A DNA stretch of 64,000 bases from Rhizophagus irregularis (taxonomy: Eukaryota > Glomeromycota > Glomeromycetes > Glomerales > Glomeraceae): contig NC_089429.1 of assembly GCF_026210795.1 (NCBI RefSeq), forward strand, positions 248,001-312,000, read 5' to 3'. Positions 1 through 48,487 of this stretch are shown here, piece after piece (positions within the stretch are counted from its first letter, which is position 1; each line of letters starts with the position of its first letter). The notes below the pieces were generated by a model, which did no database searches, was not told the origin of the DNA, and saw only the letters and a program-made list of their open reading frames with translations. Made by a program: the position numbers and the translations under genes.

Positions 1-194
1 ATTTCTTCTAATTTAGTCTGACCATACATTTTAAGGCCATTAACATTAAAGGAAGAAATATTAAATGAATTGGGGATAGGGGAAGTGTTACTGGAAGAGG
101 AAAATAACGATTCATGCGAAAAAATTTCAGTAACATTGTCAGGGTTGGGAGGGTTTCGTACAAAGGTATCATAATTAAAATTATTGTCCGACAT
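1..194 (-). CDS. LINE ORF2, N-terminal fragment (EEP endonuclease start)
   Basis: ATG at 194-192 opens the second LINE ORF, about 50 nt after the ORF1 stop, and the frame stays open to the window edge. The protein starts MSDNNFNYDTF and reaches the first endonuclease motif, an Asn in a SFNVNGL context that normally binds the catalytic metal in exonuclease-endonuclease-phosphatase domains. Only about 64 residues are in the window. Function (nicking the target DNA to prime reverse transcription) is known for the family and inferred here from identity to copy 4. Confidence 0.8.
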   Translation of the reverse strand, partial: MSDNNFNYDTFVRNPPNPDNVTEIFSHESLFSSSSNTSPIPNSFNISSFNVNGLKMYGQTKLEE

Positions 195-244
195 TAAAAC
201 ACAATGATATAAACAGTCGGGGAGTTAAAATTTGAAGAAAGAGA

Positions 245-2370
245 TTAATTGGAAGAAGCTGAATCAGCTTGTTCCAGGGGAGCACCACCAAGGGAGCCAA
301 TGAATTGCTTGATATGACCAGTAAGTTGGTCCAATTTACTTTCAATAGCGACACGACTATTTTTGAGATCATTAATTTCTTCTTGTGTGGAGGAGATGGG
401 AGTAAAAGGAGGAGCATTTGGAGAAAGGTGAGAAGAAGGAGGTGATGTGTCAGGGAACAATAGTGAATGTAGGCGAAGGTCGCGTTAAAATACTTTTGGG
501 AGGCGGCGAAGATTTAGCGGAAGACAGAATATTAAGAGGAACATGAGTTACAGGGGCATCTTCTTGCATGAGGTCCGGTTCAGGTTCATTGGGTATAGGG
601 AGTGGATCAAGGCCAAGGTGTGATTCAATACGAGTCATCCGTTGGTCAGCAAGTTCAAGAGCGGAGATGCGTTTGTGAAAGTTAGCAACTTCACATTGTA
701 ATTCTCGTAAAAGGTTTAGAATGTTGTTAGCATCATCAGGAGATAATGCAGAGTTAGGAGTTTGTCGGGGTAAGGGACGTGCTGTAGAACGAGAGGAGGA
801 AGAAAAGGAGACAGATCGTTCTTTACTATTATGGCGGGCACGTTGAGAAGTATTGGGAGGGGGTTTGTTGTGATTACTATTATCATTATTAGTGCGGTCT
901 TGGGAAGCGTTATTGGCTCGTCTAGAATTGGAAGCAGATCGATCTTTAAATTTGGAGCGAGATCGAGAGCGAGAACGTGCATTGGCAATATTAGGATTGG
1001 AGCGAGGTTGATTAACATTGAATCGTTCTTTGAGTTTTGCAACAGGGTCGCGAGTGCGGCTTCTACCTCTGGTTTGTTTGAGTGGGCAAAAATTAGGAGC
1101 ACAACCTAGTTTGCCACATCTGTGACAAAGTTTATTAGTATTATCGGGGGAGGACCAGAAAAGCACTTTGCCTTGGAAGCTAACAGTCTGTTCCATAGCA
1201 GCATCCATGGTTTCTTGGGAGTTGAAGGTGACATAGGCCCATCTTTTGGGTTTGTAGGAATTTAAAGAAAGAGGAACATTGACAGCTTTTGCACCAAGTT
1301 CGCGTGTAAGAGGAGCCAAGTTGATATCCTTAACATTGGGAGGAAGTTGAGTGAGGGTGGCAACGTATTGACGGCGCGCAGCCTTTTGATCCACAGTATA
1401 GAAACATGGAGTAATTCGGAGACAGGTGGAGAAACAGTAAACAGCCCATTGGTCGGTAAAATGAGCAATTGAATCAGCGTGATCATACACAATATGGGCT
1501 TGTTGGACTTTAGCATTAGGCCTGGAGAAGAGGCGACAAGAGGTAATATTACCAAATTTTTTGAAATAGGCCATGAGGTTGTCCTTTTTGATAAAGAAAG
1601 GGATATCGGTAACTTGGATAGCCCGGAGATCTTCATTGGATCAGAGTTGGCGAGGGTCATGGGCATGAAAAATCAAGTCGGGGAACTCAGGATGAGAGGA
1701 ACCAACGCACAGATCGCGTGCTTCAGCGGTATGGAAGTGGATAACGAGGCGTTTAGCCTCACCAGAACCTGTCATACGAGCTTTTCCAGTGAATGACTCG
1801 TACGTTTCTAAGAAAAGGTTATTCACAGCCTCAATAAGGGCTTTATTGGTAGGGAATTTCTTGAGAGATTCAGGGGCAGCATTCGGCGCAGCCGCAGCCT
1901 GAAAATCATTTCTGGTTATGGCAAGGGTCACCACTGGATCTGGGGTTTCGATCACCATCAGGAGCACCATTAGTATCCAAATTGGGCGACGCGTTAGGGG
2001 GTTGTTGCAAGTCTTTGTTTGAAGGTGCATGCATGGACGCGTCCACATTTCCAGAAGACGCGACGTGACTGGGCGCAGTTGGCGCAGCAGATTTTTTCGG
2101 GGAGGAGGTCGAAGTATTTTCGCCAGAGATATTTTGTTGAGGAGAAGAGGAAAGTCCATCTACTCCAACGTCAGCCGTCTGGGCATCGGCAACGTAGTCT
2201 TCTTCCATAGAATTTTCGGTAATCGTACGATTACGTTTCTGCTGGACAGTGTTTTCACCATCAGAGCTTGAGTTATCGGAGTTATTATTATTTTTTCGTT
2301 CTTGACGGGAAGCTTTCCTACTATTAGGGTTATGACTTCTACGGCCTCTCTTGGCATAGTTACCAGACAT
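245..2370 (-). pseudogene. LINE ORF1 (RNA-binding, zinc knuckle), frameshifted
   Basis: The first ORF of LINE copy 1 starts MSGNYAKRG at 2370 and ends at TAA 247-245. In order it has a low-complexity polar N-terminus, two stretches that look like RNA-recognition folds (around MAYFKKFGNITSCRLF and RWAYVTFNSQ), a zinc knuckle of the form C-x2-C-x4-C-x4-C (CHRCGKLGCAPNFC), an Arg/Ser-rich RSRSRSRSK stretch, and a C-terminal coiled-coil-like segment. ORF1 proteins coat the LINE RNA. The frame is broken at roughly 1940, 1640 and 455, so it is a pseudogene. Residues 450-1574 remain one open block. The RRM assignment is by eye. Confidence 0.8.
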
Positions 2371-2497
2371 AGTAGAGGGCTTTGAGTTGAGAATATATAA
2401 AATATAAAATTTTATTAGTAGTTTGTATTATTTTTTAAAAATAATAAAAAATATTTTTCGTCGAAAATTTCGTTTTTGAAAAATTCAGGAGAGAGTT

Positions 2498-2526
2498 ACT
2501 AGTCAAAAACTACTGGTCAAAAACCA
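2498..2526. repeat. LINE boundary motif, two tandem copies
   Basis: ACTAGTCAAAAACT (2498-2511) is followed directly by ACTGGTCAAAAACCA (2512-2526). This is the junction between the 5' end of LINE copy 1 and the 3' end of copy 2. The same 15-mer bounds every retroelement in the window: 10717, 10995, 16116, 17389, 39552, 39807, 40085, 40111 and 48332. Confidence 0.85.
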
Positions 2527-2789
2527 GGCAAACGTGGCATAGTAGCCTTTATCTTTATTAAATTTATTCGAACTTTACAATTTACAAAAAAAAAATAAAA
2601 AGAAAATATAAAAATAAGACTAACTAAAAACAAAGCTATATAGTCTCCTAAGAAAAAATAAAGTAAAAAAAAATTAATCTAAAAAAAGAAAAATCGCATT
2701 ACACTAAATTTCCCCAGATCTTCCCCTTGATATATTCCAGACTAAAAGTAGAAGCAACTATGCTAACAAAATAACGAATAGCGCGCCCA

Positions 2790-5700
2790 CTATAGAAATC
2801 GACACTCCATCCTGCAAAAGCTGTTATTAAGTAGCACCGTTAGACGACCCATAAAACCCGAAAAGTGATTAAACCAAGGCAAACCATATTTCATCGAGTT
2901 CTTCAACCAATCGGTTCCGGAGTCACGTGAAACGTGTAGGGTCGGAGGTGGTAAAGATGAGTAAGGTATGTACGTTGACAATGGCAAATTAGAAGGCTTC
3001 GGAGTAGTTTTCAACTTATAAGTAATATTCATCGCGTTTTCCCATCTACTTTTCTCATAAGAACGCGGATTCCAAATTCATTTTCTGAATTTTTGGACAA
3101 AATTATTATGAATAGCAGCGATAACCTTAATCGCAGAGATTCTTGGAATAGACAAATCGACTAAGATGTCAATAAAAAGTGTAGGTAAACAACCACGGAC
3201 AAGGGCGTATGAGGACCAATTTGTAGAAGAAAAGGACCAGCATGAAAGAGAAGTGAGTTTAGCAATAAAGGGAGTAGGATCAATATTAGCCAATTTTCCA
3301 GCTTCTTGAATTTTAGAAATCAAATGATTTTGATAAGATTGGAGAATTTGTTGCATAGGTAGACGACGTTTTTTGCACATAAAAAGGTGCATCAGGTCTT
3401 CCATGCGATCGATACAAGAACGGCAAGTTAATTCGTCCATGTATAAGTCTGGTCGAGTCCGCTTAAGCTTTTCCAATGTGGGTAAGTCGTCCAAGAAAAG
3501 TTTGAATTTAAAGGTTAAGTGTCTTGAAGCATGCTCAAGAGTAAAAGATGCATCATGAGAAGGCTTGAAATTCAAGGTAAACCAAGTAAGTTCCCAGTCG
3601 ACAATATATTCTATATTAGATAATAATAAAGAAATAAAGTGAAATCGCGTTAAATTTAACAAATCACGCATTAACTGCGTTTGATAATACTGTTTAAGAA
3701 GGTGTCGTAGATTAGATTCACAAACGGCGTCATTGTCGTAAGTCAAGACGAAATCATGGGCAGCAAGGTCCATTCCAGAAATCAAAATACTGGATGATGC
3801 GGTATGGGCAGTATTGGCCAGAGAGTCAGCAAAATCGTTCAAATAATTGCCAGAATGAGCTTTAACTTTAACAGGAAGAACTGTCAAATTCTTGGTAAGG
3901 ATAGTTCGTTCAATAATGGCCCAAAGCTCAAAATTTGTTGTTTTGTAGTAAAGACGGCTATTTGAGTAGACATAGGAAGAGCAACTTCGAAGGCCATCAA
4001 TGGCAGTTTGCGAGTCAGTATAAATAGTAACTTCTGAGTCGTGAGGAGAAATAGTTAAAACTGCGTAAATAGCGGCAGCTTCAGCACGAGAAGAAGAAGG
4101 ATTATCTCGAATGATGCCATGTGCATAAGTAGCAATGGAATTAGGAAAACCAGCATCAGGTACGATTTGCATCCAAGACCAGCCCATAGAAACATTAGGA
4201 GTGCCTAGATTAATAAGAGACCCATCAGTGAAAAAGATATAACGTGAGTCTGAAGACACAACCAACGGCGAATTTGCAAAAACAGCAGCAGCTGAAGATT
4301 CAATAGTGATAAGAGGAGCGGAAACTTCAACAATATCGTCAGGAGGAGAGTCAAAGTCAAAATCCAATCGACTGTAATAAAGACGGACACCATCTTCTAT
4401 ATCAGCCCAGGTAAAAGGAGAGGATACTACAGAAGTATTACGTCTAATGCGCTCATTGATGGTGGGCAGAATAAGCGAATGTTGTAGAAAAACCGTAGGC
4501 GTACAAAGGGTTAAATCAGCATTCCGTTTTTTGGAAGGAGGCAAAGGAGTATGAGCAGCACAACCAGGGCAAGGAGAGAGTCTAATGAGATCACCAGGCG
4601 AAGATTCACAATCAGGAAGAGACCCAGTGAACAATAGAACAAGTACCACGACTTGCTTGAACTAAAAGTTGTTTGCCAAAGATGGGAGAACCGTAGTCGT
4701 CTAACGTGACAATCCAATTTTTCGTAGTGGTAGGAGAGGACAGGCAAGGAGTCAATTCATAAAATGAAGAGTCAATCGTAGGCGTAGTAATGAACTGGGT
4801 CAGCAAACGATTGTTGGTGTCAGGAATGGTAGTAGCTTGCTGGATATCTTTATACCAATAAGGGATACAGCCAGGGCCACGTCGTCCAACCAAATTGTCA
4901 TAGTAGGCTTTCCAAGAAATTAAATGAGTCCCTTGGGGAGTAGCAAGCTGAGATAGATAAAACAAATGCCGTTTGCGCAAAATAGGGAAATAGGCTTTAA
5001 ACGCTTTAGGTATCGTGCATTCAAATAGGGAACGCGTCCATCCATCAAAGTCGAGTTCGGAAGCTTCGAAAGTTGAGTATGAAGCAAACGAAAAGGAGTA
5101 GAGGATAAGAGAGCAATAGTGCATGCGATATAATCTTTCTTAAAAGAAAAAGAGAAGACCATATAGACCAATCCTTAATTAAAAGGGGAGAAATAGGAAT
5201 TAAAAAATTATATTGAATCAAACTCAATCTATAAATAAAAAGAGATTGAATAAAAGAAAAGGAAGAATTAGCCATTAAAAATAAATTAGTAATATGACAT
5301 TGTCGTTGATGAGCAAATAAATTTATCAAGCCCAAGGCTTGAGATAAAAATAAAATGGGATTTGGTAAAGAGCGAGAAAAATTTGCTTTGTGCTTTACAA
5401 CAGATCGTATACTTCTCATTATTAGGTGGCAGTCAGATTCAGACAAGTGAGTAACTTGCATCCGGTATTCAAGTTTCGGTATAAGGACAGCATTATGTAA
5501 ATAAACAACTTGTTTGGATGAGAGCTTTGCAGGGCGGATGGTTGCAGCGAAGGAGCAGCATTCACGTTTGAGTTGTTTCTGACAAAATCCCGGGAGCTTT
5601 TAATGTTAAACCAAACACCTAAAAAACGAAAAGAAGTTGTCATAGAAATTGGGGTAATGGTAATGGAAGGAACACTATTTAATGAGGATAAATCTAAATT

Positions 5701-8410
5701 AAAAGTAATAGGAGATAAAGTGGAATTCGAAGTCAAAGGCAACGAATTAGTAATTAACACATATTTGTTATGATTGGCAGAAGTGTTATTAATTTGATAG
5801 AATTCTTCTGTAATGGATAACATAAATTCCATGCCAGTCTTCGACGAGGAAATAAGAGTAGAGTCATCCATAAATACTAAATTATTAATCTTCAAATCGG
5901 AAGAAGGATTGGGAGAATCAATTAAGGATGGTGTAGAAAGAACATAAGGGTCCATCATTTCATGCTTCAAGACAGTAAGTAAGGGATCAATATAAATAAC
6001 CCATAAGAGAGGAGAAATAACTTCGCCTTGGTCAATACCAATGCGAACCCTATAAGCAGGCGTGGATCCATGAGCAGTGAAAACGCTATTAATGCGTTTG
6101 TGAAAAGAAAAGGGAAAGAATAAACTTAATAGCAGAAGCTGGAAGACGTATTCGTTCTAAAGCGAAATGTAACATTGTCAAATCAACCGAGTCAAAAGCT
6201 TTAGAAATGTCTTGAGAGAGAATCCAAAGTGGGTTTTTGTTGACATCAGCATCATGGATAATAGATTCTAGAGTAATAATAGGGTCGCGGCAAGAACCAC
6301 CAGGAAAGACCAGCGAAGTTACCACCTTTAAGAACATCATGTGTAGCCATAATAGTAGAAAGGCGATTATAAAAGAGTTTGACAAGAGATTTTCTAATCA
6401 CTTCAAGTAAAGTAATAGGACGAGTATTTTTCAATTGACATTTCCATTCGTGAGGTTTGGGAATGGGAAAAACTATTGCCTGTCGCCATAAGTCAATATC
6501 AGCTTTGGAAAGGCAAGCTTGAATTAAAATAAGGAGTAGAGCCGAGAACGAGATCCAAGGTGTTTGAGCATTTCATAAGTGATCATGGAAGGACCTGAGG
6601 CTTTACCGTTAGGAGTAGAAGAAACGGTGGTTAACCATTCGTCAAGAGGTAGTGGGGGATTCATTAAAGAATCATAGATGGAGGAAGGCACATCATCCAT
6701 AGGTTGGTAAACAGAAGACCATCTATCAGGTAATGTATCTACAGATACAGGAGGAGTGGATTTTATAGGTACAAAGTTTTGGAAATGGTTAACAACAGCA
6801 TCGTCTATATCCTTGGGAGCAGTTAATAACTGAGGGCGAGTGGGATGATCAACAAAGACACGATCCAAAGTGATACGGCGGCAGGTGCGAGAAAGCGCTG
6901 AATCAATGAAAGAGGAAAGGTCAGTTTCAAAATTATTGTATCTATCGTCCAAATGAGCACGAATGGAGGAATCTTGGAATTCTTTTTCTTGAAGTAAATG
7001 AAATCCCCGTAAGGATTTTGAAATATTGGATAAATCATCAAGAAGTGACTTAAAATCATTTTGTCGACATGATGAGAGAGAAGAGGGCAAAGTAGGAACG
7101 AAAGTAAATACATTCTTATATAATTGCAAAATGTTTTGAAGTCTAATTAAATGAATAGACCACTTATGTTCATGAGCGGCAGAATAAGTTAAAGGATATT
7201 TGCGCAATAAACGTATTGAATGCATAAGGCGATTTAAAAACCGATAATGTTGGGTTAAAATTTCCAGATCTTTAGGAACCTTAGGAGTATAATTATTGCC
7301 AACAGTGGAAGAAGGTAGTGTAGCGTTGGCAGCTTTAAGAATTCGTGATTGGAGATATTCGCACATTTGATTGATATGCCAGGAGGAAAAGGTTGAAGGT
7401 GAGACGTCACATAAAGCATCAGCTTTATCAGCAAATTCCGTCCATTGAATTTCAGTTACAGAATCAAATTTGAAGACGCGACGGGTTCGGCGCTTAAGTT
7501 GTCGAGCGCGAGCCAATTTGGTAGAAGCAAAAAGTAAAGACATATCATAGTATGTTATGACGGGGTTATGATCAGATGTGCAAACATCTTGAGCATTAAA
7601 AATGCAAGCAGTAAGAGCAAATCCTTTGAGAAGAGGGCAGGACCATACATAATCAACTCGAGTAATGTGGTCATTGCGATGAAAGGTACCTAAAGAGTCG
7701 GAAAGATTAATAGGAGTATAGTGCGTATAGCGTGAGAGAGATGAAAAAATAATCGGTGAATATGTTTTGAAGCAACTTGAGGTTGATTGAAATAAATAGG
7801 GTAATATTTGTCTAAATGCATATTAAAATCGCCACAAACAGCATGGTAAAAGCCAGCATGTTTAGTGAGGGTAAGTTGTTGAATGAGCAAATCAATAGTA
7901 TCAGTGCGCAGAACACTTTCAGCAGGGGGAGGGATATAAATAACAAATATACGCAATTTAATATTGCCTTTGAAATATAAATCAACAGAAAGTAACCGTG
8001 AAGAATGGGATTTAAAATCTTGAACATGTGAAGCAAGGGAATTTTCTATAAAAGAGAAACACCACCAGAAGAGAGAATTTGTTTAGAAGTATCCAAATTA
8101 GAAGAGAACACAGTATAATTAGAAATACGTTTGGATAAAAACTTCATTTGTTTAGGGTGAAGATGGGTATCACGATACCACCAAAGGAAATATGTTTTAA
8201 GGAAAAGAAAGTAGAAATTTCTTCTAATTTAGTCTGACCATACATTTTAAGGCCATTAACATTAAAGGAAGAAATATTAAATGAATTGGGGATAGGGGAA
8301 GTGTTACTGGAAGAGGAAAATAACGATTCATGCGAAAAAATTTCAGTAACGTTGTCGGGGTTGGGAGGGTTTCGTACAAAGGTATCATAATTAAAATTAT
8401 TGTCTGACAT
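2790..8410 (-). pseudogene. LINE ORF2 (endonuclease-RT-RNase H), multiply frameshifted
   Basis: Reading starts at ATG 8410 and ends after MECRFL at 2790. Recognisable blocks are the EEP endonuclease (NVNGL near 8250, GDFN near 7820), the reverse transcriptase (QDISKAFDSVD near 6190 and the FMDD active site near 5870), RNase H (FTDGS near 4225, SRAEAAA near 4090, YTDSQ near 4025, AHSGN near 3850) and a C-terminal knuckle CRSC...HLFMC near 3400. The frame changes many times (for example around 8150, 7690, 6520, 6310, 5550 and 5100), so no full protein is possible. The RNase H part, 4649-3078, is one long open block. Confidence 0.88.
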
Positions 8411-8460
8411 TAAAACACAATGATATAAACAGTCGGGGAGTTAAAATTTGAAGAAAGAAA

Positions 8461-10578
8461 TTAATTGGAAGAAGCTGAATCAGCTTGTTCCAGGAGCACC
8501 ACCAAGGGAGCCAATGAATTGCTTGATATGACCAGTAAGTTGGTCCAATTTACTTTCAATAGCGACACGACTATTTTTGAGATCATTAATTTCTTCTTGT
8601 GTGGAGGAGATGGGAGTAAAAGGAGGAGCATTTGGAGAAAGGTGAGAAGAAGGAGGTGATGTGTCGGGAACAATAGTGAATGTAGGCGAAGGTCGCGTTA
8701 AAATACTTTTGGGAGGCGGCGAAGATTTAGCGGAAGACAGAATATTAAGAGGAACATGAGTTACAGGGGCATCTTCTTGCATGAGGTCGGTTCAGGTTCA
8801 TTGGGTATAGGGAGTGGATCGAGGCAAGGTGTGATTCAATACGAGTCATCCGTTGGTCAGCAAGTTCAAGAGCGGAGATGCGTTTGTGAAAGTTAGCAAC
8901 TTCACATTGTAATTCTCGTAAAAGGTTTAGAATGTTGTTAGCATCATCAGGAGATAATGCAGAGTTAGGAGTTTGTCGGGGTAAGGGACGTGCTGTAGAA
9001 CGAGAGGAGGAAGAAAAGGAGACAGATCGTTCTTTACTATTATGGCGGGCACGTTGAGAAGTATTGGGAGGAGGTTTGTTATGATTACTATTATCATTAT
9101 TAGTGCGGTCATGGGAAGCGTTATTGGCTCATCCAGAATTGGAAGCAGATCGATCTCTAGATTTGGAACGAGATCGAGAGCGAGAACGTGCATTGACAGT
9201 ATTAGAATTGAAACGACGAGGTTGATTAACGTTAAATCGTTCTTTGAGTTTTGCAACAGGGTCGCGAGTGCGACTTCTACCTCTGGTTTGTTTGAGTGGG
9301 CAAAAATTGGGAGCACAACCTAATTTGCCACATACGTGACAAAAGTTTATTAGTATTATCGGGGGAGGACCAGAAAAGCACTTTGCCTTGGAAGCTGACA
9401 GTCTGTTCCATAGCAGCATCCAGCGGAGTCTCTTGGGAGTTGAAGGTGACATAGGCCCATCTTTTAGGTTTGTAGGAATTTAAAGAAAGCGGGACATTGA
9501 CAGCCTTTGCGCCAAGGTTACGTGTAAGAGGAGCCAAGTTGATATCCTTAACATTGGGGGGAAGTTGAGTGAGGGTAGCAACGTATTGACGGCGCGCAGC
9601 CTTTTGATCCACAGTATAGAAACATGGAGTAATTCTAAGACAGGTGGAGAAACAGTATATAGCCCATTGATCGGTAAAACGAGCAATTGAATCGGCGTGA
9701 TCATAAACAATACGGGCTTGCTGGACTTTGGCATTAGGCCTGGAGAAGAGGCGGCAAGAGGTAATATTACCAAATTTTTTGAAATAGGCCATGAGGTTAT
9801 CCTTTTTGATAAAAAGAGGGATATCTTTAACTTGGATAGCCCGGAGATCTTCATTGGATCGGAGTTGGCGAGGGTCATGAGCATGAAAGATCAAGTCAGG
9901 GAACTCGGGATGAGTGGAACCAACGCACAAGTCGCGTGCTTCAGGCGGTATGGAAGTGGATAACGAGGCGTTTAGCCTCACCAGAACCAGTCATACGAGC
10001 TTTTCCAGTGAATGACTCGTATGTTTCTAAAAGGTTATTCACAGCCTCAATAAGGGCTTTATTGGTAGGGAATTTCTTGAGAGATTCGGGGACACGGCGC
10101 AGCGGCAGCTGAAAATCATCTCGGCCATGGCGAGGAATTGTACTGGATCCTGGAGTACGATCGCCATCTGGAGCACCATTGGTATCCAAATTAGGCGACG
10201 CGTTAGGGGGTTGTTGTAAGTCTTTGTTCGAAGGTGCATGCATGGACGCGTCCACATTTCCAGAAGACGCGACGTGACTGGGCGCAGTTGGCGCAGCAGA
10301 TTTTTTCGGGGAGGAGGTCAAAGTATTTTCGCCAGAGATATTTTGTTGAGGAGAAGAGGAAGGTCCATCTACTCCAACGTCAGCCGTCCGGGTATCGGCA
10401 ACGTAGTCTTCTTCCATAGAATTTTCAGTAATCGTACGATTACGTTTCTGCTCAGATAGTGTTTTCACCGGCGGAGCAGATTATCGGAGTTATTATTATT
10501 TTTTCGTTCTTGACGGGAAGCTTTCCTACTGTTAGGGTTATGACTTCCACGGCCTCTCTTGGCATAGTTACCAGACAT
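8461..10578 (-). pseudogene. LINE ORF1 (RNA-binding, zinc knuckle), frameshifted
   Basis: This is the same ORF1 as in copies 1 and 4, from ATG 10578 to TAA 8461. The RNA-binding block (MAYFKKFGNITSC onward) is open from 9981 to 9277. The zinc knuckle is CHVCGKLGCAPNFC, again with Cys at the usual His position, followed by the RSRTRDP and RSRSRSRSK basic region. Breaks occur near 10460, 9960, 9350 and 8800. Comparison with copy 4 shows mostly one- or two-base indels, so this is decay of a once-active ORF. Confidence 0.82.
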
Positions 10579-10716
10579 AGTAGAGGGCTTTGAGTTGGGA
10601 ATATATAAAATATAAAATTTTATTAGTAGCTTGTATTATTTTTTAAAAATAATAAAAAATTATTTTCGTCAGAAATTTTCGTTTTTGAAAAATTCAGGAG
10701 AGAGTTACTGGTCACT

Positions 10717-11009
10717 ACTGGTCAAAAACCAATATATCGGGTAGCAGATATGTATCAGATATGTACCCGATATGTGTAGTATTAATGCAGAAAATCGGGT
10801 ACCCGATATGTGTAAGATATATGTAAATATATATATCGTCTACATATTATTTACATATCATATACATATCGGTACCTGATATGTATATGATATATATATT
10901 TACATATATCTTACACATATCGGGTACCCGATTTTCTGCATTAATACTACACATATCGGGTACATATCTGATACATATCTGCTACCCGATATATTGGTTT
11001 TTGACCAGT
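10717..11009. repeat. 293-bp palindromic element, copy 1
   Basis: The segment runs from ACTGGTCAAAAACCA to TGGTTTTTGACCAGT and is a near-perfect inverted repeat with arms of about 125 bp (10717-10841 and 10885-11009) around an AT-rich centre. The arms are built of variations on ACCCGATATGTGTA. A second copy of exactly the same length lies at 39807-40099. No ORF is present. It sits between the 5' end of LINE copy 2 and the truncated start of copy 3. It could be a foldback MITE or a structured satellite used as a landing site. Confidence 0.9.
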
Positions 11010-14000
11010 CCCTCTCCTCAAAGGATATGCCCTTACTGCTTGCATTTTTAATGCTCAAGACATTTGCACATCTGATCATAACCCTGTCATCACATATTAT
11101 GATATGTCTTTACTTTATGCCTCTACTAAATTGGCTCGTGCTCGACAACTTAAACGCCAAACCCGCCGCGTCTTCAAATTTGATTCTGTAACTGATATCC
11201 AATGGACGGAATTCGCTGATAAAACTGATGCTTTATGTGATGTTTCACCTTCAACCTTTTCCTCCTGGCATATCAATCAAATGTGCGAATACCTTCAATC
11301 ACGAATCCTCAAAGCTGCCAACGCTACTTTACCTTCTTCTATTGTTGGCAACAATTATACTCCTAAGGTCCCTAAAGATCTGGAAATTTTAATTCAACAT
11401 TATCAATTTTTAAATCGCCTAATGCATTCGATACGTCTATTGCGCAAATATCCTTCAACTTATTCTGTTGTTCATGAACATAAGTGGTCTATACATTTGC
11501 ATAGAATTCACAACATTTTTCAATTATATAAGAAAGTTTTTACTTTCATCCCTATTTTGCCCTCTTCTCTTTCATTGTGTCGCCAAGACAATTTCAAGTC
11601 ACTTCTTGATGATTTATCTAATATTTCGAAATCCTTACGGGGATTTCACTTACTTCAAGAAAAAGAATTTCAAGACTCCTCTATTCGTGCTCATTTAGAC
11701 GATAGAAATAATAATTTTGAGACTGACCTTTCCTCTTTTATCGATTCAGCGCTTTCTCGCACTCGTCGCTGTATCACTTTGGATCGTGTCTTCCTCGACC
11801 ATCCTACTCGACCTCAGTTATTAACTGATCCTAAGGACGTACATGATGCTGTTGTTAACCATTTCCAAAACTTTGTCCCTATAAAGTCCACTCCTCCCGT
11901 ATCCATCGATACATTACCTGATAGATGGTCTTCTGCCTACCAACCTATGGATGATGTGTCCTCCTCCATCTATGATTCTTTAATGAATCCCCCACCCTTG
12001 ACGAATGGTTATCCACCGTCTCTTTCACTCCTAACGGTAAAGCCTCTGGTCCTTCCATGATTACCTATGAAATGCTTAAACACCTTGAAACCCGTACCTC
12101 GGCTCTGCTCCTCATATTAATTCAAACATGCCTCTCCAATGCTGATATTCCTGACTTATGGCGACTAGCAATGGTTTTTCCTATTCCTAAACCTCACGAA
12201 TGGAAATGTCAATTAAAAAATACTCGCCCTATTACCTTACTTGAAGTGATTAGGAAATCTCTTGTCAAACTTTTCTATAATCGCCTGTCTACTATTATGG
12301 CTTCACATGATGTTCTAAAAGGTGGTAACTTCGCTGGTCTTCCTGGTGGTTCTTGCCGCGACCCTATCATTACTCTAGAATCTATTATCCATGATGCTGA
12401 TATCAACAAAAACCCGCTTTGGATTCTTTCCCAAGATATCTCTAAAGCTTTTGTTTCGGTCGATCTGACAATGTTACGTTTTGCTTTAGAGCGTATACGT
12501 CTTCCTGCTTCCGCTGTTAAGTTTATCTTATCGCTTTTCATGAAACACATTAATCGCGTTTTCACCGCTCATGGATCTACACCTGCTTATAGGGTTCGCA
12601 TTGGTATTGACCAAGGCGAAGTTATCTCTCCTCTTTTATGGGTTATTTATATTGATCCTTTACTTACTGTTTTGAAAAATGAAATGATAGACCCTTATGT
12701 TCTTTCTACATCATCTTTGATCGATTCTCCAAATTCTTCTCCTGATTTGAAGATTAATAATTTAGTATTTATGGATGACTCCACTCTTATTTCCTTGTCA
12801 AAAGCTGGCATGGAATTTATGTTATCCATTACAGAAGAATTTTACCATATTAATAACACTTCTGCCAATCATAATAAATATGTGTTAATTACTAATTCGT
12901 TGCCTTTGACTTCGAATTCCACTTTATCCCCTATTACTTTTAATTTGGATTTATCCTCTCTAAATAGTGTTCCTTCTATTACTATTACCCCAATTCCCAT
13001 GACAACTTCTTTTTGATTTTTAGGTGTCTGGTTCAACATTAAATGCTCCCGGGATTTTGTCAAAAAGCAACTCAAACGTGAATGCTGCTTATTTGCAGCG
13101 ACTATTCACCCCGCAAAGCTCTCTTCCAAACAAGTTGTGTATTTACATAATGCTGTCCTTATACCGAAACTTGAATACCGGATGCAAGTTACTCACTTAT
13201 CTGAATCTGACTGTCACCTAATAACGAGAAGTATACGATCTGTAGTAAAGCATAAAGCAAATTTTTCCCGTTCTTTACCCAATCCCATTCTATTTTTATC
13301 TCAAGCCTTGGGCTTGATTAATTTGTTTGCTCATCAACGACAATGTCATATTACTAATTTATTTTTAATGGCTAATTCTTCTTCTTCATTTATTCAATCT
13401 CTTTTTATTTATAGATTGAGTTTAATTCAATATAATTTTTTGATTCCTAATTCTCCTCTTTTAATTAAAGATTGGTCTATATGGTCTTCTCTATTTTCTT
13501 TTAAGAAAGATTATATCGCATGCACTATTGCTCTTTTGTCTTCTACTCCTTTTCGTTTGCTTCACACTTAACTATCGAAGCTTCCGAATTTGTCCTTAAT
13601 GGATGGACGCGTTCCTTTATTTGAATGCATGACGCCTAAAGCCTTTAAAGCCTATTTTCCCATCTTACGTAAACGACAACTGTTTTATTTATCTCAGCTT
13701 GTTACTCCCTAAGGAACTCATTTAATTTCCTGGAAGGCTTACTATGATAATTTGGTTGGACGACGTGGCCCTGGCCGTATCCCTTATTGGTACCAAGATA
13801 TTCAACATGTTACCACTATTCCAGACTCCAATAATCGTTTGCTGGATCAGTTCAATTTTACGCTTACGATTGACTCTTCCTTTTATGATTTGACTCCTTG
13901 TTTATCTTCTCCTTCTACTACAAAAAATTGGATTGTCACGTTGGACGATTATGGTTCTCCCATTTTTGGCAAACAACTTTTAGTCCAAGTTAGTCGTGGT

Positions 14001-15858
14001 ACTTGTTCTATTGTTCACTGGATTTCCCCTGATTGTGAATCTTCACCTGGTGATCTCATCAGACTTTTTCCTTGTCCTGGTTGCGCTGCTCACATTCCTC
14101 TGCCTCCTTCCAAAAAACAGAATGCTGATTTAACCCTTTGTACACCTAAGGTCTCTCTACAACGTTCGCTTATTCTGCCCACTACCAATGAGCGGATTAA
14201 ACGTACTACTTCTGAAGTGACTTCCCCTTTTACTTGGGCTGATATAGAAGATGGTGTCCGTCTTTATTATAGTAGATTGGATTTTGGTTCTGATTCTCCT
14301 TCTGCTGATACTGTTGTAGCTCCTGCTACTCCTGTCACTATTGAATCCTCAGCTGCTGCTGTTTTTGCAAATTCCCCGTTGGTCGTGTCTTCAGACTCGC
14401 GTTACATCTTTTTCACTGATGGGTCTCTTATTAATTTAAAGACTCCCAATGTTTCTACGGGCTGGTCTTGATGCAAATAGCCCTCCCCGATGCAGGATTT
14501 CCCAACTCCATCGCTACTTACGCTCACGGTCTTATTCGTGATAATCCTTCTTCTTCTCGAGCTGAAGCTGCTGCTATTTACGCTGTTTTAACTATTTCTC
14601 CTCGCGACTCTGAAGTTACTATTTATACTGACTCGCAAACTGCCATTGATGGTCTTCGAAGTTGTTTTTCCTCTATCTACTCAAATAGTCGTTTGTACTA
14701 TAAAACTACAAATTTTGAACTTTGGGCTATTATCGAGCGAACCATCCTCTCTAAAAATTTGACTGTCCTTCCCGTCAAAGTTAAAGCTCATTCTGGCAAT
14801 TATTTAAATGATTTTGCTGACTCCTTGGCCAATACTGCTCATATCGCGTCATCCAGTATTTTGATCTCTGGAATGGACCTGGCCTCTGCCCATGATTTTG
14901 TCTTAATTTATGACAATGACGTTGTCTGTGAATCTAATCCGCGACACCTTCTAAAACAATATTATCAAACGCAGTTAATGCGCGATCTGTTAAACTTAAC
15001 GCGATTTCACTTTATTTCTTTATTATCAACTAATACAGATTATATTGTTGACTGGGAACTTACTTGGTTCACTCTAAATTTCAAGCCCTCCCATGATGCA
15101 TCCTTTACTCCTAAACACGCTTCAAGACACCTAACCTTTAAATTCAAACTTTTCTTAGATGATTTGCCTACATTGGAAAAGCTTAAACGGACCCGACCAG
15201 ACTTATACATGGACGAATTAACTTGCCGTTCTTGTATCGACCGCATGGAAGACCTGATGCACCTTTTTATGTGCAAAAGACGACGTCTGCCTATGCAACA
15301 AATTCTTCAATCTTATCAAAATCATTTAATTTCCAAACTTCTGGAAGCAAGCAATTTGGCTGACACTGATCCTACTCCATTTATAGCTAAACTTACTTCT
15401 CTTTCATGCTGGTCCTTTTCTTCTACAAATTGGTCCTCCTTCGCCCTTATCCGTGGTTGTTTACCCAAACTCTTCATCGACTCATTTGTTGATTTATCCA
15501 TTCCAAGAACTTCTGCGATAAAGTTATCGCTGCTATTCATAACAATTTTATCCAGAAATTCAGAAGACGAATCTGGAATCCGCGTTCTTATGAGAAAAGT
15601 AGATGGGAAAACGCGATGAACATTACCTATAAGTTGAAAACTACTCCGAAGCCATCTAATCTGCCATTGTTGATGTACATACCTTACTCATCTTTACCAC
15701 CTCCGACCCTACACGATTCACGTGACTCCGGAACCGATTGGTTGAAGAACTCGATGAAATATGGTTTGCCTTGGTTTAATCATTTTTCGGGTTTTATGGG
15801 TCGTCTAATGGTGCTACTTAATAACAGCTTTTGCAGGATGGAGTGTCGATTTTTATAG
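11010..15858 (+). pseudogene. LINE ORF2 fragment (RT and RNase H), stops and frameshifts
   Basis: It covers the end of the endonuclease, the linker (11104-12060), the reverse transcriptase (12057-13016; GGNFAGLPGGSCRDP, FMDD near 12773), the connection region, RNase H (FTDGS near 14415, YTDSQ near 14627, AHSGN near 14790) and the C-terminal CRSC...HLFMC knuckle near 15250. Breaks are a frameshift near 12000, TGA near 13016, TAA at 13569-13571 and 13710-13712, and a one-base deletion near 14470. In RT motif A the copy reads AFVSVD where the others read AFDSVD. It cannot encode an active enzyme. Confidence 0.88.
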
Positions 15859-16115
15859 TGGGCGCGCTATTCGTTATTTTGTTAGCATAGTTGCTTCTAC
15901 TTTGGTTGGAATATATCAAGGGGGAAGATCTGGGGAATTTTAGTGTAATGCGATTTTTCTTTTTTAGATTAATTCTTTTTACTTTATTTTTCCTTAGGAG
16001 ACTATATAGCTTTGTTTTTAGTTAGTTTTATTTTTATATCTTTCTTTTTATTTTTGTAAATTGTATAAGTTCGAATAAATTTAATAAAGATAAAGGCTAC
16101 TATGCCACGTTTGCC
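15859..16115 (+). other. LINE 3' UTR
   Basis: This is the non-coding tail after the ORF2 stop. It is conserved with 48076-48331 and, on the other strand, 2527-2789 and 39567-39806. It ends with TTTAATAAAGATAAAGG and CTACTATGCCACG before the 15-mer boundary motif. There is no long poly(A), so the 3' end recognition probably depends on sequence rather than on an A-tail. Confidence 0.7.
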
Positions 16116-16130
16116 TGGTTTTTGACCAGT

Positions 16131-17388
16131 AGTGATGATGATCGTACTTTCTCCCCCGTTGGGCTCTGCCCATTTTTTCCCATGAAGTTATGGATGAAAA
16201 ATATGAGGATTTTTTGCCTTGAGTGATAGTAAAAGGACTTTTCGACGTTATATGAAGTTATTACCGAGGTCTTTAGTTTCGCCCGAACTCCTTACGGCTT
16301 ATATTGAGTTAGGACCGTTATCATGAGTCTTGGAGTTACCAATAATACTGTAAGATGGCAGTTCCATACGAACGTTCCCCTGGGCTTTTTGAAAGGTTGA
16401 AAAGTAGTGCGTCTTGGTTCCTACGCCTTTAAAGTCTAACTGGCCAAGTGGTTCGCAGGCCGGACCGGTATTTCTTGGAAGGAGCTTCTGACCAACGTAT
16501 TTCTTGCTAGTTGATGTTGTTAACTGGGGAGTTAGTTTTCTAAAATAAGGAGACGGAGTTGAGGTGTATGTTTGGTGAATTTTACTCAGGTTTTTCTCAT
16601 TGCACTTCGAGTTTTCCTGGGGTTTATGTCTTTATTTTTTGCTTTTTGTTTTTCTTGGTCACTTTTTTCGGTGTAACCTTATTTTCTTTGGGGGGTGGGG
16701 GGATACTGGAAAATTTGATCGTCATGGTGGCTTAGTGTTACAATTTTAAAATCGATCATCATTGGGGTGATAAGGGGGGTGACAGGTTGGGTACTGCAGT
16801 TTTTGTAGTATGCCGATCAAGGTGGTCACATGATGGACTATCATTGGATTGACTTATCTAGGTAGATCTTAGGTCGATGGATTGTTCGCAATGAGGTGGG
16901 TGTCTTCTGTTTGGGATCGTTTGAAATGAGGTGGGTGTCCCTTCGGGGATTGCACGACACTAAAAAGTTCCCCATCGGCTGGACTGCATGCAATAATAAA
17001 AGTTCCGATGTGCGTGAAATAGGTTTGTTATCATAGTATGTAGTCAAATAGGGGAAATTGAATTTTAGGCATTTTTGATAGTGCTAATGGTAGCTCGGTT
17101 CTTTACCGATTCTAGGAGTGGGTACGGCCTGGATGGGTTACGTATAGCATAGTCGACTTTACTCATTTTGGAGATATATTTGTTTGGGGGGAGTAGCCGT
17201 AGTTATTTATATAGAGAGGGTGGGGTTTTTAATCTTAGCTTTTCTTATTTGTAATTTCGGAAGATTATTTGTTCTTTGTTTTTCTATTAGTTCTGCACTT
17301 GTTGCGGTACTTTTTAGATCACTCTGTGTTTCTTTAAAGTTACTTCGGCATTAATTAATAAAATTCAAGTTTCACTTTATGTTTACCT
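16131..17388 (+). mobile_element. Orphan 1.26-kb non-coding element with LINE-type borders
   Basis: A block clearly richer in G and C than its surroundings lies between two copies of TGGTTTTTGACCAGT (16116-16130 and 17389-17403). Its head AGTGATGATGATCG recalls the LINE head AGTGACTAGTAG, and its tail has AATTAATAAAATTCAAG like the LINE AATAAA-type tail. No long ORF on either strand is convincing, and no LINE protein can be read in it. The best explanation is a non-autonomous retroposon mobilised by the LINE machinery. A degenerate unrelated LINE remnant is the alternative. Confidence 0.6.
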
Positions 17389-17403
17389 TGGTTTTTGACC
17401 AGT

Positions 17404-17820
17404 GTTATAGTGGTGCAGTAGCGTTAATAAGATTTCTCTACAAGTATTAGTTTTATTTCAGTTGACAAAAACCTATTTGGCACACATTATTTGTCACATA
17501 GTTAATTTCTTAATTTCTTAATGCTGGCCGTTTCGTGATATTTTGGGGTAGTCCGTTAATAAGAAATTAGGTCGTTGTCACGTGACATTAACAAAATTCC
17601 AAAAAAGGAAATTTTGTTGTCCAATGAAATTCAAGTTATATTGTACAAAATTCCCAAAAAGGAAATTTTTATGTCGATCTTAATAAAATTTTAATAGTCA
17701 CGTGACCGGAAGTAGTATAATTTCGATTAACGATTAATCGATGATTAATCGATTCTAAAATCGATTCTAATAATTATAATCGATTCCAATCCTTAGTCCA
17801 AAGAGGTTGGCAACTACGAA
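17404..17820. other. Intergenic, AT-rich with short repeats
   Basis: No gene is seen. CACGTGAC motifs at about 17579 and 17699 bracket two copies of an AACAAAATTCC(A/C)AAAA-type sequence followed by GGAAATTTT, and 17724-17790 holds a cluster of TAATCGATT/ATCGATTCTAA words. Nothing here can be named. Confidence 0.6.
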
Positions 17821-22229: not shown

Positions 22230-22857
22230 TTTGTAAGTTTACGAAAGTTTATGGCATAATATTTCGAAAAATTTCAAAATATTACGTAAGTTTACAATTT
22301 CGTAAGATTTATGTGATATTACGGTTAAAATATTACGTAAGTTTTCAATATCGTAAGATTTACGCAATATTACGGTCAAAATATTCTGCAAATTTACGAA
22401 ACTGTAAACCTGCGTAATATTACGGTTGAAATATTTCGAAAATTTACGAAACTGTAAACCTGCGTAATATTACGGTTGAAATATTTCGAAAATTTATGAA
22501 ACTGTAAACCTGCGTAATATTACGGTTGAAATATTTCGAAAATTTACGAAACTGTAAACCTGCGTAATATTACGGTTAAAATATTTCGAAAATTTACGAA
22601 ACTGTAAACCTGCGTAATATTACGGTTGAAATATTTCGAAAATTTACGAAACTGTAAACCTGCGTAATATTACGGTTAAAATATTTCGAAAATTTACGAA
22701 ACTGTAAACCTGCGTAATATTACGGTCAAAATATTCTGCAAATTTACGAAACTGTAAACCTGCGTAATATTACGGTTGAAATATTTCGAAAATTTACGAA
22801 ACTGTAAACCTGCGTAATATTACGGTTGAAATATTTCGAAAATTTACGAGATTGTAA
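22230..22857. repeat. 50-bp tandem satellite
   Basis: The word ACTGTAAACCTGCGTAATAT begins at 22401, 22451, 22501, 22551, 22601, 22651, 22701, 22751 and 22801, an exact 50-bp step without indels. Degenerate units lie on both sides. Each unit holds the palindromes CGTAATATTACG and GAAATATTTC. The array is subterminal in the Plavaka-like element; related but disordered words fill 31430-31857 at the other end. Unlike a CRISPR there are no unique spacers. Confidence 0.92.
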
Positions 22858-23233
22858 ACTGCATATGCAGTAGAACGTATACAAGGGGCATGTGATACTA
22901 TTGAATAATCAAAAATAATATAAACACCTTTTCTTTTATATAAACACCTTTTTTTTTAAGTTTGGGAAAGCAAATTTATTTTTATTTACGAATTTTTTAT
23001 TATTTACAATTTTTATGTTAAAAATTAAAGTAAATTCTAATTTTTATTATAACTTAATAAAAAAAATACACATTTGATACTTGTTCGCTACTATTTTATA
23101 AAATAGTACCCAGGCTGTACGGCGTGGACGTCAGTATCAGTCACAGCCCAAAAAAAACGTGAGTCTCCAGCCGATATTTGGTACGGACTGGGCCTAGCTA
23201 CTCACTTAATAAATAATAAAAAAATAAAAATAA

Positions 23234-38770: not shown

Positions 38771-39551
38771 ACATCAATTAATGTTGAAAGAAATGATTTC
38801 AACCAGTGGTTAATAGGTCCGTCTCAGATTCTGTCAATTATAACTAAATGTTAAGAAGACAATAGTAGTTATAACATAGTTTATATTAGTAAGATATGTA
38901 AAAAACACAATACATAAAAATATAATACAATCCCATTTTATTTTTAATATAAAAGTTTATTAAATAATTAATATAAGTTAATTTTTAACTTATACTATCT
39001 AAACTTAACACATTTCGATCTTTTTATTTTTACCCACTTTAATCAAAAAAAATCCAAAGATATTTATATAAAATAAAATATAAGAAAAATAAAATAACTA
39101 AAAAAATAAGATATATAAAATAAATAAAATCAATAAGATAAATAAAAGAAATAATAAAAATAATAAAAATAACAATAATAATAATTGTAACATTACTAAT
39201 CAGATTTATAAAATTATTTAATTACATAATAATTGATCTACTAATTAATCATCTGATTTTCAAGTCATGTGATTTTTACTGCGCCATGATTTTCATTATC
39301 ATCAAAAAGCTTAAGGCTAGATTTGCATTATTAGAATAGGGTTCAGTAGTAGATATAATAGTGTTGTTATTTAATCAGATATAAAATTATGAAGAAGTAA
39401 TGTCAGTAGTGACAGTACTAACTGTTGATATATCTGACTTTATAATAAACTAATTCAACAATGAAGTAGGACGAGCACCTAGTAATCTTGATAATAATAA
39501 TGAAGAAATGGTTAATTTCTTGGATGATATGTATAAAAAAAATACAATTAG
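38771..39551. other. AT-rich stretch, possible short coding relic near its end
   Basis: It is mostly poly-A/T. At about 39451-39546 one frame reads GRAPSNLDNNNEEMVNF and LDDMYKKN, which looks protein-like, but a stop lies just upstream and a LINE fragment follows directly. I cannot name it. Confidence 0.3.
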
Positions 39552-39566
39552 CACTGGTCAAAAACC

Positions 39567-39806
39567 AGGCAAACGTGGCATAGTAGCCTTTATCTTTATT
39601 AAATTTATTCGAACTTTACAATTTACAAAAAATAAAAAGAAAAATATAAAAATAAAACTAACTAAAAACAAAGCTATATAGTCTCCTAAGAAAAAATAAA
39701 GTAAAAAAAAAATTAATCTAAAAAAGAAAAATCGCATTACACTAAATTTTCCCAGATCTTCCCCCTTGATATATTCCAACCAAAGTAGAAGCAACAATGC
39801 TAACAA
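39567..39806 (-). mobile_element. LINE 3'-end fragment
   Basis: These are the last 240 bp of the LINE on the minus strand (compare 2527-2770), bounded by ACTGGTCAAAAACCA at 39552-39566 and 39807-39821. It is an extremely 5'-truncated insertion. The ORFs across it are spurious. Confidence 0.88.
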
Positions 39807-40099
39807 ACTGGTCAAAAACCAATATATCGGGTAGCAGATATGTATCAGATATGTACCCAATATGTGTAGTATTAATGCAGAAAATTGGGTACCCGATATG
39901 TGTAAGATATGTGTAAATATATATATCATATACATATCGGGTACTGATATGTATATGATATGTAAATGATATGTAGATGATATATATATTTACACATATC
40001 TTACACATATCGGGTACCCGATTTTCTGCATTAATACTACACATATCGGGTACATATCTGATACATATCTGCTACCCGATATATTGGTTTTTGACTAGT
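39807..40099. repeat. 293-bp palindromic element, copy 2
   Basis: It has the same structure and exact length as 10717-11009, from ACTGGTCAAAAACCA to TGGTTTTTGACTAGT, with arms of about 125 bp. A partial repeat of its end (CTGATATATTGG and TTTTTGACCAGT) follows at 40100-40125. It directly precedes the 5' end of LINE copy 4. Confidence 0.9.
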
Positions 40100-40266
40100 A
40101 CCTGATATATTGGTTTTTGACCAGTAGTGACTAGTAGTAACTCTCTCCTGAATTTTTCAAAAACGAAAATTTCCGACGAAAATAATTTTTTTATTATTTT
40201 TAAAAATAATACAAGCTACTAATAAAATTTTATATTTTATATATTCCCAACTCAAAGCCCTCTACT

Positions 40267-42393: not shown

Positions 42394-42443
42394 TTTCTTT
42401 CTCCAAATTTTAACTCCCCGACTGTTTATATCATTGTGTTTTA

Positions 42444-48075: not shown

Positions 48076-48346
48076 TGGGCGCGCTATTCGTTATTTTGTT
48101 AGCATAGTTGCTTCTACTTTGGTTGGAATATATCAAGGGGGAAGATCTGGGGAAATTTAGTGTAATGCGATTTTTCTTTTTTAGATTAATTTTTTACTTT
48201 ATTTTTTCTTAGGAGACTATATAGCTTTGTTTTTAGTTAGTTTTATTTTTATATTTTCTTTTTATTTTTTTTGTAAATTGTAAAGTTCGAATAAATTTAA
48301 TAAAGATAAAGGCTACTATGCCACGTTTGCCTGGTTTTTGACTAGT

Positions 48347-48487
48347 GTAGAATGCATTTTTAAAAAAAAACTTATTTCATCACAATTAAAAATATTTTCA
48401 GAGCTGTAATTTTTCAATGTTTAATGAAAATTTTTACATACTGTATTGCATCAAAATCTTGAAATAGTACACTTGCTACTTCCCTAT
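48347..48487. other. AT-rich spacer
   Basis: No feature is seen between the LINE border and the next foldback element. Confidence 0.4.

Follow-up and report, generated by a model that had tools for sequence, protein, structure and literature searches.

Tx1L of Xenopus laevis is said to insert into the DNA transposon Tx1D; TRAS and SART, which are of the apurinic/apyrimidinic endonuclease (APE) type, insert sequence-specifically into repeats, and in pairs of short and long interspersed nuclear elements (SINEs and LINEs) the two partners share a 3′ tail. According to the consulted part of PMC4640811, the targets of non-long-terminal-repeat (non-LTR) retrotransposons include transposons, and target-specific families that encode an APE belong to the Tx1 and R1 clades. 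For Rhizophagus irregularis, the consulted part of PMC11075540, a study based on chromosome-level assemblies of nine strains, gives L1-Tx1, L1-R1, I and others as LINE classes and Plavaka elements, of the CACTA group, as prevalent; the term ‘target site’ does not occur in its main text. Here we describe LINE1, a retrotransposon in a stretch of 64,000 nucleotides of R. irregularis (assembly GCF_026210795.1, contig NC_089429.1, positions 248,001 to 312,000 of the forward strand; G000:C1:248001-312000), referred to as the window, and its relatives in the genome searched (146.7 Mb, 32 contigs). LINE1 is very probably an APE-type non-LTR retrotransposon targeting the tip of a CACTG-type palindromic miniature inverted-repeat transposable element (MITE), with the enzyme presumably picking the site and the tail the cargo.

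The 15-mer TGGTTTTTGACCAGT has 117 exact copies genome-wide and its reversed control none; within 2 mismatches the window holds 11 copies, where shuffles lead one to expect 0.24. A sequence-only reading of the window had placed this 15-mer at the borders of all retroelements and proposed site-specific insertion of LINEs with a constant 15-bp target-site duplication and self-nesting. The 15-mer was found again at every position given there, one of them moved by a base (39553, not 39552), and inspection of the junction sequences placed each window copy at an element border: 2498 (2 mismatches), 2512, 10717, 10995, 16116 and 17389 in cluster 1, and 39553, 39807, 40085 (1 mismatch), 40111 and 48332 (1 mismatch) in cluster 2. 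Each window LINE has the 15-mer directly after its 3′ end (...GCTACTATGCCACGTTTGCC) and a 15-mer in the same orientation before its 5′ end; for the LINE at the left edge the 3′-side 15-mer lies outside the window (L167). The four LINE copies that lie in the window with both their ends (B, C, D and E below) are flanked in direct orientation. The stretch 16131-17388 is no LINE but a 1.26-kb element without coding capacity. The 15-mer had also been called a short motif outside rDNA and telomeres. It is indeed dispersed; it is not free-standing. The inverted 15-mer pairs at 10717/10995 and 39807/40085 mark both tips of MITE-1, a palindrome about 280 bp long that recurs in the genome, and the 15-mer is the last 15 bp, except the final G, of its inverted terminal repeat. 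LINE1 is inserted one base inside the MITE tip, pointing outward, with the 15-mer duplicated, and each window cluster is a single MITE carrying stacked LINEs. Both clusters are composed as follows.

C1:242295-242297 (outside the window): left TTA copy of the target duplication of the cluster 1 MITE.
G000:C1:242314-242334 (outside the window): next LINE 3′ end on the strand of LINE A.
1-2497, minus strand: 5′ part of LINE1 copy A, continuing beyond the left window edge.
2498-2511, minus: additional partial copy of the target, AGTTTTTGACTAGT, at the LINE A 5′ junction.
2512-2526, minus: 15-mer, 3′ target-site duplication of LINE B and site of LINE A.
2527-10706, minus: full-length LINE1 copy B, whose 3′ end is at 2527; RNase H (Pfam) in open reading frame (ORF) 3078-4649.
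10707-10716, minus: 5′ junction filler AGTGACCAGT.
10717-11009: MITE-1, near-perfect palindrome, with 15-mers at both ends (10717-10731, minus; 10995-11009, plus).
11010-16115, plus: LINE1 copy C, 5′-truncated, with reverse transcriptase (RT) and RNase H; its 5′ side directly abuts the MITE 15-mer.
16116-16130, plus: 15-mer, duplicated target site of LINE C, serving in turn as target for the 1.26-kb element.
16131-17388, plus: 1.26-kb non-autonomous retroelement (‘SIDE’, here also the passenger), whose 3′ tail ATGTTTACC resembles the LINE tail.
17389-17403, plus: 15-mer, outermost duplication at the right of cluster 1.
17404-17407, plus: terminal G of MITE-1 (17404) and right target-duplication copy TTA.
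39549-39551, plus: left target-duplication copy TAG of the cluster 2 MITE; 39552 is the terminal C of the MITE.
39553-39567, minus: 15-mer, target-site duplication of LINE stub D.
39568-39806, minus: LINE1 copy D, a 239-bp 3′ stub.
39807-40099: MITE-1 of cluster 2, with one mismatch in the 15-mer of its right tip.
40100-40138, plus: 5′ junction of LINE E, a repeated MITE tip with the 15-mer at 40111-40125 and AGT-type filler.
40139-48331, plus: LINE1 copy E, full length, ORF2 spread over several frames; APE-type endonuclease in ORF 42444-43712, RT at 44274-45809, RNase H within 45689-46903.
48332-48346, plus: 15-mer (1 mismatch), target-site duplication of LINE E.
48347-48350, plus: terminal G of the MITE (48347) and right target-duplication copy TAG.

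Cluster 1 spans C1:242299-265403 and comprises at least the three LINEs A, B and C, and the 1.26-kb element, on one MITE; outside the window LINE A was read at its 3′ end only, and the spacing of the 15-mers from 242299 to 250512 fits one LINE. Since each insertion re-creates the target, copies stack at one tip. Head-to-tail tandems with a unit spacing of about 8.2 kb, judged by the 15-mer positions, are common and might suggest that the clusters were made mainly by unequal recombination between 15-mers or between LINE copies. This is very unlikely, as the stacked units are not alike: full-length, truncated, stub and SIDE units differ in their 5′ junction filler, and truncation points vary. 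Recombination may nonetheless add tandem copies.

MITE-1 is palindromic over nearly its whole length. Searched with up to 2 mismatches, its inner end was found 181 times genome-wide, and the listing gives 100 of these ends. With both tips free, MITE-1 ends in CACTGGTCAAAAACCA...TGGTTTTTGACCAGTG or near variants, with a 3-bp duplication flanking it. The script detected this duplication in 8 of 9 MITEs with both tips empty, and L092 (TTA) and L093 (TTT) have it in addition. Six MITEs bearing LINEs were read on their outer flanks, and in all of them the duplication on one side of the entire stack matches that on the other (cluster 1, TTA; cluster 2, TAG; L035/L159, L036/L160, L062/L161 and L075/L164). 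The score of the nine-MITE set alone was equalled by at least one of 2000 shuffles; in the 17 MITEs pooled 16 match, against a mean of 1.8 for shuffled pairs, and none of 20000 shuffles reached 16. By its terminal CACTG inverted repeats and 3-bp target duplication MITE-1 is a CACTG-type MITE and fits the class of CACTA/EnSpm-type MITEs.

The occupation of MITE tips was followed in 95 of the 100 listed MITE ends, which are covered by fetched loci or by the window. The raw script gave 49 empty, 35 LINE, 5 SIDE and 6 other ends. Three ends were then corrected by hand: C26:1395085 (the match being the non-LINE flank of L190) and C29:986763 (a MITE inside a LINE) were moved from LINE to empty, and C1:288068 from other to LINE, which yields 51 empty tips, 34 with a LINE, 5 with the 1.26-kb element and 5 changed otherwise. 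Empty tips carry a single 15-mer, the state that had been proposed as a check for empty sites. All 39 filled tips hold an outward-pointing LINE or 1.26-kb element (plus- then minus-strand scan). The minus-strand scan of the tips gave no convincing antisense insertion; its one strong match is the MITE inside a LINE at L093, and three further weak matches have 71-82% identity over 33-66 bp. In about 15 of the 34 LINE-filled tips, as judged by match start, a 5′-truncated LINE, in one case short by merely some 20 bases, lies directly against the 15-mer. Both tips of one MITE can be occupied. The smallest stub, at L022 (C1:90205-90266), is a LINE insertion of 32 bp between two 15-mers.

The same junctions could be explained by MITEs inserting beside LINE ends instead of LINEs into MITEs, and at L093 a MITE does sit within a LINE copy, flanked by a TTT duplication of its own. 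Nevertheless this order of events is almost certainly wrong: the 3-bp duplication of the MITE lies outside the LINEs in 6/6 LINE-bearing MITEs tested, so the MITE was present first, and empty MITEs are common. For the tested loci the place of the MITE duplications rules it out. The locus L093 (C29:986394-986920), with MITE-1 inside a LINE1 copy, is a case of two parasites invading each other.

A census of the exact 15-mers led to the same picture of MITE ends and their duplications. Of the 117 copies 100 were listed and 17 unlisted, and all 100 are explained, 82 by position (48 MITE ends, 29 LINE 3′ duplications, 5 SIDE 3′ duplications) and 18 by individual inspection. Eleven of these 18 fall in ten fetched loci, being ten MITE ends and C1:3606764, where the tip is joined to a different MITE; another five are MITE ends whose inner sequence is altered (L027, L036, L074, L108, L110) and two are 5′-junction repeats (C1:288111 in the window; C3:2145280, L054). 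The joined tip (L179, C1:3606324-3606928) runs directly into the end of the different MITE (...TTTTTTTACCAGTGT) and represents a nested or rearranged pair.

Allowing up to 3 mismatches, 231 copies of the LINE 3′ end were counted; the listing covers 100 of them, and 71 of these are exact. Counted together, the 3′ end plus the 15-mer within 3 mismatches over 25 bases occurs at 106 places genome-wide, again with 100 listed. The sequence-only reading had asked how often the LINE end is followed by the motif: 79 of the 100 listed 3′ ends precede the 15-mer (3 mismatches, 25-mer), as do 65 of the 71 exact ones, and five more precede a decayed copy of this target, T1 (up to 4 mismatches). The rest comprise 9 ends at T2, 2 at T3, 1 at T4, 1 at an interrupted T1 (L001) and 3 without known target, where T2 TTGAYAAGGACTGATGA, T3 YRAAAGTGTGACTT and T4 TATAGTAAAATATC are used by sister LINEs whose last 40 nt are nearly the same. 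Unrelated 3′ flanks had been named beforehand as evidence against strict targeting. Flanks other than the 15-mer do exist as a minority (16/100), and 12 of these 16 are on the three other repeated sites. The LINE1 5′ end has 62 copies, and in 55 of them the 60 bp upstream contain T1 with no more than 2 mismatches. With most copies at one sequence and empty sites bearing it once, LINE1 has the pattern of a site-specific LINE, and 3′ ends, 5′ ends and empty tips together bear out insertion at one site with a constant 15-bp duplication and self-nesting.

As the 15-mer stands at both borders of the window LINEs, it might be terminal LINE sequence, contained in the LINE RNA and travelling with it, a possibility raised earlier as a way in which targeting would fail. 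This is extremely unlikely. LINE-free MITE ends carry one copy of the 15-mer, 5′-truncated LINEs, even the 32-bp stub, keep it on their 5′ side, and T2, T3 or T4 stands in its place at LINEs whose 3′ tail is nearly identical. Because truncated LINEs abut the motif, empty MITEs carry it and sisters with nearly the same tail lack it, it is not part of the LINE RNA; empty MITEs, truncated copies and other targets rule out the motif as a LINE terminus.

Among the sister LINEs, LINE2 (L119 47-8259) stands at T2; its ORF1 encodes 714 aa and its ORF2 is divided between two frames. Together with its flank, T2 was counted 106 times, and a LINE or SIDE end followed by T2 occurs 63 times. Of eight T2 copies inspected away from listed 3′ ends, L127, L130, L132 and L133 are empty and have the site once, and L128, L129, L131 and L134 are occupied by a variant tail, CCATATTTGCC. 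At L194 (1492-1595) a T2 site lies within a 52-bp tandem repeat, beside ORFs; three ORFs beside one T2 site had no Pfam match. T3 lies on both sides of L190, in an arm of another palindromic MITE, the empty form of which (L193) has 141-bp arms that are 98% complementary; T3 with flank occurs 405 times. Ten CCATG 3′ ends without a listed T1 or T2 match gave 7 T3, 1 T2 and 2 without a target assigned. T4 is found as TATAGTAAAATATCA on both sides of L189 and, with flank, 12 times, with empty forms in L195 and L196.

Identities between the families were compared in six copies, the T4 copy being a decayed one. The last 40 nt are 95-100% identical between families. Outside them DNA identity is 53-83%, the pair T1-T4 excepted, for which it is 93-94% in the 5′ untranslated region (UTR), 87-88% in the endonuclease, 75-76% in the RT and 96-97% in the 3′ UTR. 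At the amino-acid level, over the parts aligned, the endonuclease regions of T1 and T2 are 72% identical, those of T1 and T3 61% over 242 residues and those of T1 and T4 86-93% in three pieces. Folding of the tail gave a weakly predicted RNA hairpin (a GGC/GCC stem of about -5 kcal/mol), which was not seen in one of two SIDE tails; we make no claim for a common hairpin. The comparisons point to a probable radiation of at least four LINE families from one lineage in one fungal genome, each tied to a different repeat target, of which at least two are arms of palindromic MITEs. The near-common 3′ tail would let a single passenger ride any of them, and specificity would reside in the protein alone, having been switched at about 12-13% endonuclease DNA divergence (T1 vs T4).

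This passenger, the 1.26-kb element, has no ORF over 68 aa in its window copy (16131-17388), and blastn against LINE1 and LINE2 gave no match at 1e-5. The window copy is 96% identical to a copy at T2 (L119 8274-9530). The passenger ends in CTATGTTTRCC, which resembles the LINE tail CCAYGTTTGCC. With up to 3 mismatches, 61 copies of the passenger 3′ end were found. Among 20 such ends read, 5 stand at T1 (6 with L158, assigned by eye at an offset of 4), 3 at T2, 1 at T3 and 3 at T4, so the passenger is present at all four targets. A Pol III-type head (tRNA, 5S or 7SL) as in SINEs was not recognised in the window, where ARAGORN found no tRNA and Rfam gave no match at gathering score. In the simplest reading several LINE enzymes may copy the passenger, each bringing it to its own site. 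Its presence at all four targets suggests that protein, not cargo RNA, chooses the site.

LINE1 encodes an ORF1 with RRM and an ORF2 with endonuclease, RT and RNase H; lack of LTRs, 5′ truncation and target-site duplication mark it as a LINE. The RT matches RVT_1 with 7.8e-22 (window 44274-45806) and has R2 and L1 ORF2 as best PDB matches. N-terminal to it, Exo_endo_phos_2 is matched in the T1 (6.5e-05), T2 (3.9e-06) and T3 (2.2e-06) copies. GDFN and SDHN, which we take to be endonuclease motifs, are visible in this region, and the endonuclease ORF had no match in the PDB. RNase_H was detected in the T1 window copy (1.8e-11) and in the T2 copy (1.6e-10). RNase H is usually absent in the L1/Tx1 group, and its presence speaks against a place of LINE1 in the Tx1 clade. 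An APE, an RT and a C-terminal RNase H characterise the I/R1/Tad1-type group, with which LINE1 agrees in domain order, the one feature compared. The RT active site reads FMDD in the copies read (window 44977-45000; L119; L190), a position where YADD or FADD is usual.

Several results weigh against strict targeting by an APE-type enzyme. Of the 231 LINE 3′ ends 131 were not listed, and merely some of these were met through later searches. Three of the 100 listed ends match no target (L003, L006, L018), L001 being an interrupted T1, and the decayed-T1 calls for L004 and L012 are weak, as a distance of 4 mismatches or fewer to some target was also reached by 86 of 4200 shuffled flanks. Seven of the 62 LINE1-like 5′ ends are not at T1 within 2 mismatches: L050 and L076 are at T4, L026 is at a decayed T1, L029 is off-target, and L034, L042 and L049 have other flanks. 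One LINE has a clear, unrelated 15-bp duplication, TAGATCACTTTTAAC (3′ side L003, 5′ side L029). For the passenger, 8 of the 20 3′ ends fit no target by script, 7 by eye. The endonuclease scores of the window copy (23.2) and of the T2 copy (27.1) lie under the Pfam cut-off of 27.4, the T3 copy (28.0) being the sole one over it.

In L034 and L042 the LINE1 5′-end matches (3 mismatches) follow A runs without a target and perhaps belong to another family or arose by chance. The off-target copy L003/L029 (C11:3561646-3569868), a LINE1 of full-length spacing, invites the explanation that LINE1 is weakly specific and accumulated at MITE tips by selection against other insertions or in protected regions. 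This is very unlikely, as most insertions agree to the base in position and orientation, which selection on location alone would not give, and as the sister families stand at different exact sites. The specificity of LINE1 is strong, not absolute.

The course of insertion can be proposed from the junctions alone, from which the nick positions were deduced. The LINE1 endonuclease would nick the strand reading ACTGGTCAAAAACCA^ATATAT, and the RT would prime at this nick on the RNA 3′ tail GCCAYGTTTGCC (target-primed reverse transcription). On the opposite strand the cut would fall 15 bp from there, immediately behind CCAGT and a single base short of the end of the MITE. The 15-bp duplication of L003/L029 indicates that the staggered cut keeps its length off target. 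Sister families at T2-T4 with nearly the same tail and a shared passenger suggest that the enzyme chooses the site and the tail the cargo.

Between the target and the LINE start AACTCTCTCC, filler is often (AGT)n or a partial target copy. Among 55 junctions it is AGT in 9, missing in 7 and AGTG in 4, with longer forms up to a whole extra 15-mer. At T2 it is built of T2 pieces (TGATGATA, AAGGACTGATA) and at T4 of TCA pieces. The off-target L029 keeps AGTAGT though its own target ends in AAC; its filler therefore came with the RNA from a T1 donor. The target-like triplets suggest that transcription likely starts in the target copy upstream and that the transcripts pair with the cut target in more than one register.

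Outside the clusters the window contains an ORF with ankyrin repeats (56960-57943) and an array of about 11 copies of a 50-bp unit (22316-22859).

Site-specific LINEs are sought as tools and as models of selfish DNA that spares its host. The safe haven used here is another parasite, which spreads through the genome carrying fresh targets. What is copied and where it goes are set apart here by the near-common tail and the shared passenger. As endonucleases that are 61-72% identical (T1 with T3 and T2), T4 being closer, stand at different targets, the residues that set specificity could be mapped; if the reading is true, the four families form a ready series for mapping target change in APE endonucleases. 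In the titles and abstract openings of the literature matches listed, no report of these LINE targets was found, nor, among those matches, target-switched LINE families sharing one hitch-hiker.

Like LINE1, Tx1L is said to be a LINE of the APE type that inserts strictly at one site in a non-autonomous DNA transposon. LINE1 differs from it in a site one base inside the terminal repeat of a palindromic MITE, in the use of both tips, in stacking and in its RNase H domain, and also in having sister families with different targets that share a near-common tail and a non-autonomous partner. MITE-1 resembles CACTA/EnSpm-type MITEs in its CACTG termini and 3-bp target duplication and differs from them in being palindromic over nearly its whole length. 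The passenger is, as in SINE/LINE pairs, non-coding, has a LINE-like 3′ end and stands at the LINE target; unlike them it is 1.26 kb long, without tRNA or Rfam match in the window, and occurs at the targets of four LINE families. In contrast to R1 and TRAS/SART, the LINE1 group targets neither rDNA nor telomeres but the ends of DNA transposons and further dispersed repeats, and its host is a fungus. With the R1 clade, as described in the consulted part of PMC4640811, LINE1 shares the APE type, sequence-specific insertion into repeats and related families with different targets. R2, NeSL, CRE and Utopia, in the same part of that source, likewise use one repeated site, with tandem insertions in one Utopia family; they carry a restriction-like endonuclease, whereas the LINE1 group has an APE-type domain N-terminal to the RT. 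We rate the kind of system as known and its combination as new: a MITE tip entered one base from its end, at least four targets, a near-common tail and a common passenger.

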